From: an uncultured Pseudomonadota bacterium
GTDB taxonomy: Bacteria > Pseudomonadota > Gammaproteobacteria > Burkholderiales > Usitatibacteraceae
Length of the DNA stretch: 5,146 nt
NCBI GenBank assembly: GCA_946885905.1
Contig: CAMPHL010000217.1
Coordinates: forward strand, 1-5,146
Direction: 5' to 3'
Shown here piece after piece: positions 1,226-5,146 of the stretch. The translations under genes were made by a program, and so were the position numbers. Each line of letters begins with the position of its first letter. Position 1 is the stretch's first letter. The notes beneath the pieces are model-generated. The model had not been told where the DNA came from. It ran no database searches and saw nothing but the letters and a program-made list of their open reading frames with translations.

Positions 1226-1231
1226 TATAAT
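1226..1231 (+). promoter_or_regulatory. candidate -10 box for rhlE-pepN
   Basis: A perfect TATAAT sits in otherwise GC-rich DNA, in the only sizeable intergenic gap. No convincing -35 hexamer lies 15-19 bases upstream (the bases there are ACCGGGAAA-like), and there is no extended TG motif at -15. If used, transcription would begin near 1237-1239 and give a leader of about 155 bases before the rhlE start. It could need an activator or be a chance match. Confidence 0.4.
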
Positions 1232-1257
1232 GGGTTTCAGGGTCTGGCGGCGTCTCA

Positions 1258-1341
1258 CCCGGTTGACGCCCCGCCCGGTTCGCGGTCGAGTTCCCGTCCC
1301 CGAATTTCCATCTGGAGCCAACATTCGTCTGCCTGAACCGG
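1258..1341 (+). promoter_or_regulatory. leader repeats able to form an alternative pairing
   Basis: CCCGGTT occurs twice in the rhlE leader, at 1258-1264 and 1274-1280. The second copy gives CCGGTTC (1275-1281), which is exactly complementary to GAACCGG (1335-1341), a 7-bp helix. The first copy can offer 6 bp to the same target. The target overlaps the left arm of the stem that hides the rhlE Shine-Dalgarno sequence (1332-1338), so the two structures exclude each other. The pairing is seen in the sequence; a switching role is inference. Confidence 0.3.
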
Positions 1342-1388
1342 TTTCGAGGGCTTGTCCCTCGCGGGCCGATTCAATCTGTTCAGGAGAC
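1327..1388 (+). promoter_or_regulatory. leader stem-loop that sequesters the rhlE ribosome site
   Basis: GTCT (1327-1330) and CCTGAAC (1332-1338) are exactly complementary to AGAC (1385-1388) and GTTCAGG (1378-1384). Together they form an 11-bp stem with a single bulged G at 1331. Inside it, CGG (1339-1341) can pair with CCG (1366-1368), and CGAGGG (1345-1350) with CCCTCG (1356-1361) around a CTTGT loop. The right arm of the outer stem contains the whole AGGAG (1382-1386) of the helicase gene. Such an arrangement would block initiation until the stem is opened. It lies within a few bases of the start codon, and no T-run follows it, so a transcription terminator is unlikely. Confidence 0.55.
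1382..1386 (+). promoter_or_regulatory. Shine-Dalgarno that decides the rhlE start
   Basis: AGGAG lies 6 bases before the ATC at 1393. This spacing is why ATC 1393 is preferred over the other non-standard candidates (ATT 1369, CTG 1333, CTG 1420). The site lies wholly inside the right arm of the 1327-1388 stem. Confidence 0.55.
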
Positions 1389-1392
1389 TGAC

Positions 1393-2853
1393 ATCGGTAC
1401 GTCCTTCGAAAGCCTCGGGCTGATCCCCGAGCTGCTTCGCGCCGTCGCGGAGCAAGGCTACACAACCCCCACTCCCATCCAGGCGCAAGCCATCCCCGTC
1501 GTCCTCTCGGGCCGCGACCTGCTCGGCGCCGCCCAGACCGGCACCGGCAAGACCGCGGGCTTCACGCTTCCCCTGCTGCAGCGGCTCGCACCCATGGCGA
1601 CGAAGAGCTTTTCGCCCGCGCTGCATCCGGTGCGCTGCCTCATCCTCACGCCGACGCGCGAGCTCGCGATCCAGGTCCACGACAGCGTGAAGTCGTACGG
1701 CAAGCACGTCCCGCTGCGCTCGTTCTGCGTCTACGGCGGCGTGAACATCAACCCCCAGATCGAGGAGATGAAGCGCGGCGTCGAGATCCTCGTCGCCACG
1801 CCGGGCCGGCTGCTCGACCTGGTCGGCCAGAAGGCCGTGAACCTCGGCAAGGTGCAGATCCTGGTCCTGGACGAAGCCGACCGCATGCTCGACATGGGCT
1901 TCATCCCGGACATCAAGCGCATCATCGCGCTCATTCCGGCGATGCGGCAGACGCTGCTCTTCTCGGCCACGTTCTCCGACGAGATCCGCAAGCTCTCGGC
2001 GCAATTCCTGAAGGACCCGGCGACGGTCGAAGTGGCGCGCCGCAACACGCCGGCCGAGGCGGTGACCCAGTACGTCTACCACGTCGAGGCCAACCGCAAG
2101 CGAGAGCTCCTGTCGCACCTCGTACGCAGCAACGCGTGGGACCAGGTCCTGGTCTTCACGAAGACGAAGCACGGCGCGAACCGCCTCGCTTCGCAGCTCC
2201 AGCGCGACAAGATCAACGCCGACGCGATCCACGGCAACAAGAGCCAGAATGCGCGCATCCGCGCGCTCGAGGACTTCAAGGTCGGCAAGGTGAAGGTGCT
2301 CGTGGCGACGGACATCGCGGCGCGCGGCCTGGACATCGAGGAGTTGCCGCACGTAGTGAACTTCGACCTGCCCCACGTGGCCGAGGACTACGTGCACCGT
2401 ATCGGCCGCACCGGCCGCGCCGGCGCCACCGGTGAAGCGCTCTCGCTCGTGTGCGGCGAGGACCGCCCGCTGCTGGGGGCGATCGAGCGCCTAATCAACC
2501 GCAAGATCGACGTCCGCCACGCCGAAGGATTCGATGGACGCGCGCCGGCTCGCTCCGAGCCCGAACGCGCCCCGGCGGCTCCGGCAGCCCGCAGAGGCGA
2601 AGAGAAACGGCCGCGCAAGGGCGAGCGCCCTGCGCGGGGAAGCGAGGAAAAGCGCCGTGTGCGCTCCGACCGCGCGCCGCGACATCGCTCGGCGCCGCCG
2701 CCGCAGGTATCGGGCAACAGCGGCGGCATGGATTTCAGCAAGCCATACGAGCCCAGCCCCTCGGCCCTCGCGGCCGACAGTGAACCCGCGCAGGTGAAGC
2801 GCGGTCGCCAATCGCAGCCGATCCCGGCACTCTTCCGCAAGAAAGCCGCCTAA
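1393..2853 (+). CDS. rhlE: RhlE-type DEAD-box ATP-dependent RNA helicase
   Basis: A cytoplasmic RNA helicase of about 486 residues. All core motifs are present: an upstream aromatic (F5) and Q motif GYTTPTPIQ (22-30), motif I AQTGTGKT (47-54), Ia PTRELA (87-92), Ib TPGR, II DEAD (160-163), III SAT (191-193), [21 protein letters not shown] (305-314) and [10 protein letters not shown] (335-342). From about residue 383 a low-complexity tail rich in Arg, Lys, Glu, Pro and Ala ends in [11 protein letters not shown]; such basic tails in RhlE proteins are thought to bind RNA. Known roles of the family are rRNA maturation, ribosome assembly and mRNA turnover. The start is unusual. The frame is open from 1267 but has no ATG, GTG or TTG before Met68 at 1594, which would remove the Q motif and motif I. 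ATC at 1393, 6 bases after AGGAG, gives the family-like N-terminus (M)GTSFESLGL. The function is very secure; the exact start is moderate. pepN follows after 7 bp. Confidence 0.92.
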
Positions 2854-2860: not shown

Positions 2861-5146
2861 ATGCGCGACGCGACGCCGCAGACCATCCGGCTGCAGGACT
2901 ACACGCCGCCTGCGTTCCTGATCTCGACCGTCGAGCTCGACGTGGACATCCGGGAATCCCAGGCGACCGTGCGCTCGACGCTCAAGCTCACGCGAAACGC
3001 GGCACACCCGCAAGCCGGCGCGCCCCTGGTCCTCGACGGACGCGAGCTCGAACTGGTCTGGGTCGCGATGGACGGTCGGCAGCTCCAGCAGGGCGAGTAC
3101 CGCGTCGACGAGAACCACCTCGTGATCGAGCAGGCTCCCGACGCCTTCACCCTGCAGGCGGTCGTGCGCTTCGATCCCTGGAAGAACACCAAGCTCGAGG
3201 GGCTCTATGCGACCAAGTCGGGGCTCGTCACGCAGTGCGAAGCCGAGGGCTTCCGGCACATCACCTACTTCATCGATCGTCCCGACGTGATGGCCACCTA
3301 TGCCGTCACGCTCTGCGCGGCGAAGGCCCGCTTCCCCCGCCTGCTCGCCAATGGCAACCTCGTTGCGAACGGCGACGGGCAACCCGCGGGCTGGTTCCTG
3401 CCTTCGCAGCATGAAGGGCTGCACTGGGCGCGGTGGGAAGACCCGTTTCCCAAGCCCTGCTACCTCTTCGCGATGGTGGCCGCGCAGCTCGAGATGCTGG
3501 AGGACCACTTCACCACCCGCTCGGGCAAGCGCGCGCTGCTCCAGGTCTACGTCGAGCAGGACAAGCTCGACCAGGCCGGATTCGCGATGAACTGCCTCAA
3601 GCGCTGCATGGAATGGGACGAGCACGCCTTCGGGCTCGAGCTCGACCTCGAGCGCTTCATGATCGTGGCGGTCTCGGACTTCAACGCCGGCGCGATGGAG
3701 AACAAGGGGCTCAACATATTCAACACGAAGTACGTCCTCGCGCGGGCGGACACCGCCACCGACATGGACTACTTCGGCGTGGACCGCGTGGTCGCGCACG
3801 AGTACTTCCACAACTGGACCGGCAACCGGGTGACGTGCCGCGACTGGTTCCAGCTTTCCCTCAAGGAAGGCCTCACGGTCTATCGGGACCAGGAGTACAG
3901 CGCCGACGAGTACTCGCGCCCGGTCGTCCGGATCCAGGAGGTGCGAGGGCTGCGCGAGCGCCAGTTCCCCGAGGACGCGGGGCCCATGGCGCACCCGGTC
4001 CGGCCCGACTCGTACGTCGAGATCAACAACTTCTACACCAGCACCGTCTACGAGAAGGGCGCCGAGGTGGTGCGCATGTACGCGACGATCCTCGGCAAGG
4101 AAGGCTTCCGCCGCGGCATGGACCTGTACTTCCAGCACCATGACGGCAAGGCCGTGACCTGCGACGACTTCCGCGCGGCCATGGCGATCGCGAACGATGT
4201 GGACCTTTCGCAATTCGCGCGCTGGTATTCGCAGGCGGGCACGCCGGTGGTCGAGGCGAGCGGCTCGTACGACGCCCGCAAGCGCACCTACACGCTGCGC
4301 CTCAGGCAGAGCTGCCCGCCCACGCCCGGGCAGGAAACGAAACTGCCTTTCGTGATTCCCTTCGCCGTCGGGCTCGTCGACCAGGACGGCCGGGACATTG
4401 CGCTCAGGCTTGAAAGCGGACCCTCGTTCGGCAAGGGCACCTTCACCGGCTCCGAGACCATCGTGCTCGCCCTGCCCGAGGAAGAGCAGGATTTCGTGTT
4501 CGGCGGCGTCGATGAGCACCCCGTGCCCTCGCTGCTGCGCGGATTCTCCGCCCCGGTGCACGTTCGCTACAACTATTCCGACGCGGAGCTCACGCACCTG
4601 CTCGCCTACGACTCGGATGCGTTCAATCGCTGGGAGGCGGGGCAGGTGATGACCACGCGCGTGCTGCTTGCCGGCGTGGAGCAGCTGCGCAAGGGTCGGG
4701 AGATGGAGGTGCCGCTGGCCCTCGTCGAAGCGTATGGACGGCTCCTCACGCTGGGCTCGCGCGACCCCGCCTTCGCCGCGGAGTGCATGCAGCTTCCTTC
4801 CGAGAACTACCTCGCCGAATGCATGGAGGTCGCGGACCCGGCGCTCATCCACGAGGCGCGCACGCGCTTCATGCGCGACCTCGCGACGCGCTACCGCACG
4901 CGCTTCGAGGGTGCCTTCCGCCACTTCACGACGGTCGGGCCCTACTCGCCCGACGCCGCCGCGGCGGGACGCAGGGCCTTGCGCAATTCGGCGCTCACTT
5001 ACGTAGCCACCATCGACGACGCCACGGCCCGTGCGCTCGCCTTCCTCGAATATCGCCGTGCGGAGAACATGACCGACGCGATGGCCGCGCTCGCGTGCCT
5101 CGCGAACAGCGCCGGCGCCGAACGCGACCGCGCGCTCGCCATGTTC
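2861..5146 (+). CDS. pepN: aminopeptidase N (M1 family zinc metallopeptidase), 3' end missing
   Basis: 762 residues are read without a stop to the window end. E. coli PepN has about 870, so roughly 110-125 residues are missing. PepN is a cytoplasmic M1 zinc aminopeptidase that removes N-terminal residues from peptides late in protein breakdown. Visible are the N-terminal beta domain with QCEAEGFRHITYF (Q125 and E127, matching E. coli Q119 and E121), the catalytic domain with GAMEN (277-281), HEYFHNW with zinc ligands H313 and H317 and catalytic E314, the third zinc ligand E336 (LKEGLTV), and the transition-state Tyr397 in VYEKG. A beta domain (about 461-560) and the start of the helical C-terminal domain follow. 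Two differences stand out. Ala276 replaces E. coli Met260 just before GAMEN, and the loop between LANGN and HWARW (about 167-187) is some 10 residues longer. The ATG at 2861 yields a normal N-terminus; it lies 7 bp after the rhlE stop, implying one transcript. Confidence 0.96.
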   Translation, partial: MRDATPQTIRLQDYTPPAFLISTVELDVDIRESQATVRSTLKLTRNAAHPQAGAPLVLDGRELELVWVAMDGRQLQQGEYRVDENHLVIEQAPDAFTLQAVVRFDPWKNTKLEGLYATKSGLVTQCEAEGFRHITYFIDRPDVMATYAVTLCAAKARFPRLLANGNLVANGDGQPAGWFLPSQHEGLHWARWEDPFPKPCYLFAMVAAQLEMLEDHFTTRSGKRALLQVYVEQDKLDQAGFAMNCLKRCMEWDEHAFGLELDLERFMIVAVSDFNAGAMENKGLNIFNTKYVLARADTATDMDYFGVDRVVAHEYFHNWTGNRVTCRDWFQLSLKEGLTVYRDQEYSADEYSRPVVRIQEVRGLRERQFPEDAGPMAHPVRPDSYVEINNFYTSTVYEKGAEVVRMYATILGKEGFRRGMDLYFQHHDGKAVTCDDFRAAMAIANDVDLSQFARWYSQAGTPVVEASGSYDARKRTYTLRLRQSCPPTPGQETKLPFVIPFAVGLVDQDGRDIALRLESGPSFGKGTFTGSETIVLALPEEEQDFVFGGVDEHPVPSLLRGFSAPVHVRYNYSDAELTHLLAYDSDAFNRWEAGQVMTTRVLLAGVEQLRKGREMEVPLALVEAYGRLLTLGSRDPAFAAECMQLPSENYLAECMEVADPALIHEARTRFMRDLATRYRTRFEGAFRHFTTVGPYSPDAAAAGRRALRNSALTYVATIDDATARALAFLEYRRAENMTDAMAALACLANSAGAERDRALAMF

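Follow-up and report, generated by a model that had tools for sequence, protein, structure and literature searches.

The question raised by this locus is how translation of an RNA helicase gene, rhlE, is controlled when its ribosome binding site lies within the arm of a hairpin. The 5,146-nucleotide stretch of DNA analysed here (the window) carries rhlE between two genes named from their translations: an upstream gene (225-1184), presumably coding for a tripartite-tricarboxylate-type binding protein, and a downstream gene (2861-5146), which we take to be aminopeptidase N. The best homologue of the rhlE product is named DEAD/DEAH box helicase and comes from Usitatibacter sp., and those of the closest proteins that carry a name are annotated as DEAD/DEAH box helicase or as RhlE, which is in accordance with the initial annotation of the gene as an RNA helicase. 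The features of the locus are summarized in Table 1.

Table 1. Features of the rhlE locus, with positions counted from the first letter of the window
Feature	Position	Strand	Remarks
Putative -10 TATAAT	1226-1231	+	From sequence; inferred transcript start near 1238
P0, 5' hairpin GGCGTC/GACGCC, loop TCACCCGGTT	1249-1270	+	45 of 55 listed leaders aligned
CCGGTT in P0 loop, candidate anti-sequestor	1259-1264	+	Complement of AACCGG in the left arm of the sequestor
Second copy CCGGTTC	1275-1281	+	Complement of GAACCGG; paired in the alternative window MFE
Sequestor hairpin	1331-1386	+	P1 1332-1337/1379-1384; P2 CGGT/GCCG; P3 1345-1350/1356-1361
Shine-Dalgarno AGGAG	1382-1386	+	First three bases paired in P1
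Start codon ATC	1393-1395	+	6 nt past GGAG; Ile codon at the same place in many relatives
rhlE, DEAD-box RNA helicase	1393-2853	+	486 codons from ATC; best homologue 92% identical over 100%

The hairpin could be read directly in the window. The initial annotation had described an 11-bp stem formed by GTCT (1327-1330), a bulged G1331 and CCTGAAC (1332-1338) with GTTCAGGAGAC (1378-1388), an inner 6-bp hairpin CGAGGG/CCCTCG, and a Shine-Dalgarno (SD) sequence buried inside the right arm; all three are present, the inner hairpin corresponding to P3. The eleven pairs were retained in part: CCTGAA/TTCAGG, which is P1 and holds the SD, recurs in the alignments of relatives, whereas the outer GTCT/AGAC pairs lie outside the shared structure. 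P3 is the variable part of the hairpin. The initial description of the leader held for the stem, but it did not include P2, the ATC start or the upstream CCGGTT element.

Folding of 1320-1400 gave the sequestor as both the minimum free energy (MFE) and the centroid structure (-30.1 kcal/mol; z -2.45, with 3 of 200 shuffles folding as well), and ten relatives, each folded alone, gave the same structure with z values of -1.47 to -4.57. The stem is thereby recovered in this shorter stretch, but it is lost from the MFE of the 224-nt stretch 1237-1460, in which the left arm is held upstream by the second CCGGTTC copy. The probability of P1 in the window ranged from 0.00 to 1.00 and was strongly set by the ends chosen, so that single-sequence folding alone cannot settle the structure of the window. 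In 100 nt of context the mean P1 probability was 0.61, and 64% of the 123 leaders exceeded 0.5. The Rfam 15 covariance-model search of the window returned no match at E<=1, and that of six relatives returned four matches, which all scored far below the gathering threshold and lay outside the leader.

The distribution of the hairpin was analysed from a scan of named genomes, which gave a starting set of 80 loci. A pattern search of these loci together with the window (81 sources in all) picked up the hairpin in 13, and 11 of the 13 matches (L005 and L028 left out) formed the alignment A2, from which the covariance model R1 was built. On 20 chosen genomes R1 gave one strong match (E<=1.3e-11) in each of 11, ten of which were its own seeds. 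In the betaproteobacterial family of the genome of L039 (G001), 55 of 98 genomes matched R1 at E<=1e-3, at 56 places. A second model, R2, was built from 67 matches; at the same threshold it found the hairpin in 55 of 399 genomes of the order (56 places), nine of which had supplied sequence to R2. Of 369 genomes of the class, two matched R2, one being the query genome G001 itself. Positions 1331-1392 of the window scored 48.6 bits against R2, and the window is also in the seed of this model. The stricter filters drop weak members, and eight loci were added by eye (L142, L148, L151, L170, L173, L176, L182 and L187). In several genomes of the family the best rhlE was seen, by eye, to have no hairpin. 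The aligned matches precede an rhlE-like frame in 122 of 124 cases, counting two frames cut short (L135 and L233) that were admitted on little sequence; the exceptions are L286, which has no helicase frame, and L121, which meets the contig end. Arms devoid of conservation or covariation in relatives, the outcome that the initial annotation had set against its stem, were not what was found: the hairpin is kept before rhlE across the betaproteobacterial order.

The pairing was analysed in the alignments A4 (98 matches, 89 distinct rows) and A5 (26 matches). In A4, 93.4% of the cells were paired, compared to 83.6% after shuffling and at most 53.4% when slid; the alignments A3 to A5 were fitted to the structure, which flatters this support. 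All four pairs of P3 in A4 change on both sides, with 116 two-sided cells compared to 37.8 in the shuffled alignments, and A5 agrees with A4 on the structure. The SD-hiding P1 is nearly invariant and so has little covariation of its own: its fifth pair changes from A-U to G-C in 4 of the 89 distinct rows and is unpaired in 17, and its only other variation is a small number of G.U pairs. P2 showed one-sided variation only, with one to three rows unpaired per pair, and its U.G wobble is kept in 80 of 89 rows. The GGA of the SD is invariant in all 11 rows of A2. Covariation is strong in P3, but thin (4/89 rows) in P1, which lies in the arms where the initial annotation had proposed to look for compensatory changes. 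Taken together, the hairpin is real and conserved.

The near-invariance of the arms bears on two other readings of the locus. In the first, a dimeric regulator would bind the inverted repeat CCTGAAnCGG as a DNA operator close to the promoter, and folding of the RNA would be a by-product. Both arms are nearly invariant and do form an inverted repeat, and the CCGGTT element lies close to the putative -10; however, the distance between the arms varies while the intervening P3 keeps its covarying complementarity, and the right arm carries the SD 6-7 nt before an ATC, ATT or ATA (ATH) start. Because P3 covaries, the operator is considered improbable.

In the second, the leader would be an RNA thermometer whose hairpin melts with heat and frees the SD, as the initial annotation had suggested in its mention of a thermosensor. 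The SD does lie within a stem adjoining the start codon, and in 1238-1460 its predicted openness rises from 0.01 at 10 C to 0.50 at 55 C. With the 3' end at 1400, however, the probability of P1 at 55 C was 0.82 to 0.99 for 5' ends at 1238, 1290, 1310 and 1324, and at least 0.97 for the last three; longer stretches gave falling or mixed values. A 5' end at 1260, with the 3' end again at 1400, abolished P1, which was near absent at all temperatures. The stems of RNA thermometers are not known to be as nearly fixed in sequence as P1 and P2 are here. With P1 and P2 nearly invariant and P1 closed at 55 C in four of the five stretches ending at 1400, the thermosensor is disfavoured and considered very unlikely. 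The near-invariance of P1 and P2 and the wobble conserved in P2 suggest recognition rather than a thermometer. P2 is nearly invariant though it lies outside the SD, and it keeps its wobble, which points to a factor that may read the RNA.

The start codon of rhlE was then considered. In the window, the frame of rhlE has no ATG, GTG or TTG from the upstream stop up to position 1594. The ATG found there (codon 67) is the first canonical codon downstream of the ATC, and it comes after Walker A (codon 49). TSFESLGL, the conserved N-terminus, starts two codons past the ATC, and in many of the 120 database proteins listed the translation includes the leader, with an Ile directly ahead of [SGT]TSFESLGL. 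In many of these 120 entries the N-terminus is falsely extended by the translated leader, or the protein is truncated to a late start. A start-like codon was found 5-12 nt past the SD in 120 of 122 helicase frames (none in L119 and L134), and the starts of these 120 hairpin-bearing genes were ATT in 40, ATC in 35, ATA in 2, ATG in 23 and TTG in 20, near-copies being included in the counts. By sequence, a start other than ATG, GTG or TTG, as in infC and sigR, is thus present in the window (ATC) and in 77 of the 120 genes. The ATH codon lies 6 nt past GGAG in 60 genes and 7 nt in 17. On a tree of 111 N-terminal pieces, made by a quick method and with some very long branches, the ATH label needs seven changes, and the window falls in a well-supported set of seven rows, all with ATC. 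As a control, infC of the same family showed, by eye, an Ile codon at the start in 24 of the 28 loci shown, out of 30.

The ATC could be an artefact, with a canonical start used elsewhere. In-frame upstream ATG, GTG or TTG codons are absent before the stop in 43 of the 77 ATH genes and present in 34, and L271 has an ATG 6 nt before its ATC. The next downstream canonical codon lies past Walker A in 18 of 73 ATH genes, leaving 55 in which it does not. The start-picking script favoured a spacing of about 6 nt, and four loci (L096, L105, L111 and L112) offer two Ile codons. Against these points, the window has no upstream canonical codon and its first downstream one is beyond Walker A, and across genomes the Ile codon stays 6-7 nt from the SD, although loci differ in its reading frame with respect to the SD. 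The artefact is given a very low probability. The ATC or ATT start also means that rhlE is assigned a wrong start by gene callers in the hairpin-bearing betaproteobacterial group.

The hairpin and the ATH start are separable, as the hairpin occurs with ATG in 23 of 120 genes and one class of paralogues has the ATH start with no hairpin. Seven second RhlE paralogues lacking the hairpin (L192, L203, L205, L206, L208, L209 and L210) apparently start with ATC, ATT or ATA, and carry TATAAT (six) or TATACT (one) in their last 90 nt; the starts of all 20 second paralogues, read by eye, were ATC/ATT/ATA in 7, TTG in 9, ATG in 3 and GTG in 1. In another leader (L119/L227, the rhlE leader of G111), a hairpin-like stretch comes after the first SD, then a second AGGAG ahead of an ATC, and the start of this rhlE seems to have moved downstream.

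The region upstream of the hairpin was analysed for a promoter and for a partner of the left arm. Relatives carry -10-like hexamers ahead of the conserved element, and a consensus scanner gave no sigma-70 site in 1100-1600. If the TATAAT of the window is the -10, the left arm would lie inside the transcript. The P0 stem showed 36 two-sided cells in 45 leaders compared to 19.1 after shuffling, with only 70.7% of cells paired and three of its six pairs failing in 18 to 25 of the 45 rows; these leaders were chosen by the CCGGTT element itself (55 listed, 45 aligned). Automated detection of P0 from the stem score alone gave noise, and a context-based test of the stem gave a weak difference (3.92 vs 3.40, swap maximum 3.71). 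Between P0 and the sequestor, the linker (1271-1330 in the window; also L102, L107 and L212) was observed to carry a recurring TTCGnGG ... CCnCGAA, which could form a stem.

The CCGGTT hexamer occurs within 220 nt upstream in 94 of 123 leaders, compared to 9.4 expected and a maximum of 18 in 200 base-composition shuffles. When the element was picked by the pattern [CT]C[GA]GTN, which pre-fixes several bases, and by promoter context, not by the arm, it was present in 118 of 119 leaders (L006 has no promoter context). Element and arm pair fully, with G.U allowed, in 97 of the 118, compared to a mean of 87.8 and a maximum of 94 in 2000 shuffles; in the remaining 21, five of the six positions are paired in 19 leaders and four in 2. 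An exact Watson-Crick element accompanies 12 of the 18 variant arms (CCAGTC for GACTGG in 7, CCGGTC for GACCGG in 5), while the other six comprise one single T.G (L026), three paired via G.U and two missing one pair. The variant arms are clustered by descent, and with G.U allowed they fit the consensus CCGGTT equally well (5.89 pairs either way). The CCGG palindrome also confounds the length of the complement (longest run 5.96, compared to 4.91 shuffled and 5.63 for the reverse-complemented arm). As the consensus element fits the variant arms as well with G.U, an SD-freeing pairing of CCGGTT with the left arm is no more than plausible.

The energies of the two states were compared. The closed fold was the more stable of the two in 114 of 121 leaders, the median difference being 5.2 kcal/mol, with no pseudoknot included in the calculation of the open state. 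In the window an unconstrained third fold reached -60.3 kcal/mol, compared to -57.7 for the closed fold, a gain of 2.6 kcal/mol. Since mutually exclusive pairings are available, a small-molecule riboswitch may be envisaged, in which a ligand shifts the leader between two pairings. The leader, however, precedes a single type of gene and no metabolic gene, gave no Rfam match, and has a variable stretch between element and sequestor, which is only 26-36 nt long in 12 of 118 leaders; a riboswitch is rated as highly improbable.

The reading favoured here, with moderate confidence, is a conserved cis-acting rhlE leader that limits translation of the helicase by a closed hairpin, opened by an alternative pairing or by a protein, and by a start codon disfavoured by IF3. 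The P1-P2-P3 structure, itself conserved, would close over the SD in most leaders. Opening might occur by pairing of the left arm AACCGG with CCGGTT near the 5' end, or through a protein that recognizes the near-invariant P1/P2 region. As the element and the left arm are made before the right arm, the open pairing could form first and give the ribosome a time window. The available portions of two studies describe repression of non-canonical starts by IF3 (PMC5472188, PMC9410913). Even an open leader would be slow to initiate because its start codon is AUC, of the class that IF3 discriminates against, and RhlE output should for the same reason also track the level of free IF3, by analogy with infC and Streptomyces sigR. 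The output of rhlE is thus probably held down by two locks, the hidden ribosome site and the rare ATC/ATT start, and the likeliest outcome would be a tight, low synthesis of RhlE that is linked to the condition of the RNA and ribosome machinery.

The protein that reads the leader could be RhlE itself. The leader would then mimic an RhlE substrate, which RhlE either opens (positive loop) or clamps shut (negative loop). The near-invariant P1 and P2 with the conserved wobble suggest a reading protein, 122 of 124 aligned matches precede an rhlE-like frame, and the available portion of a report on the DEAD-box helicase CrhR offers a precedent (PMC3485376). The 20 second RhlE paralogues, however, show by eye no such hairpin in the 90 nt before the match, and self-regulation is a tentative possibility. 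A wider proposal, that this is a new class of regulatory leader in which the loop of a 5' hairpin competes for the sequestor arm and, with the AUU/AUC start, makes the helicase a read-out of RNA-unwinding capacity and initiation-factor balance, is speculative and rather unlikely. Under the favoured reading, that of a leader limiting rhlE translation, a helicase lineage with AUU/AUC-type starts and a conserved SD hairpin would extend IF3 control beyond IF3 itself and would give a direct means of learning how helicase levels are set in bacteria.

No report of such an rhlE leader or of non-AUG rhlE starts was found among the best literature matches, which come mostly from outside subscription journals. 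The autogenous leaders of ribosomal proteins likewise carry a conserved SD-sequestering hairpin suited to the bound protein; the rhlE leader differs from them in its target, and its regulator is here a candidate only. The ROSE and fourU RNA thermometers also hold the SD in a stem, but the stem of the rhlE leader is nearly invariant, and for four of the five stretches with their 3' end at 1400 its P1 is predicted to stay closed at 55 C. The product of pcnB is poly(A) polymerase, unlike the helicase encoded by rhlE, and we know of no comparable leader for it. E. coli pcnB resembles rhlE in coding for an enzyme of RNA metabolism, and it has an AUU start; according to the available text of one study, AUU is the start codon of just two E. 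coli genes, infC and pcnB (PMC9410913). In Synechocystis, expression of the DEAD-box helicase gene crhR depends on itself, as self-regulation of RhlE would require, but it acts via the stability of transcript and protein, and the accessible part of the source names neither an SD hairpin nor a rare start (PMC3485376). Streptomyces sigR, which has a GTC start repressed by IF3, resembles rhlE as a gene for a product other than an initiation factor that uses a rare start codon as control; it differs in phylum and codon, and a leader hairpin is not mentioned in the part of the report at hand (PMC5472188). A further likeness is to the infC leader, with its AUU/AUC start and autocontrol by IF3: both genes have a start other than ATG, GTG or TTG past a good SD, for which the available portions of two sources lead discrimination by IF3 to be expected (PMC5472188, PMC9410913). 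The rhlE leader differs from that of infC in that its product is a helicase with no direct IF3 loop, that an SD-sequestering hairpin is added, and that the start varies among lineages, being ATT/ATC in some and TTG or ATG in others.
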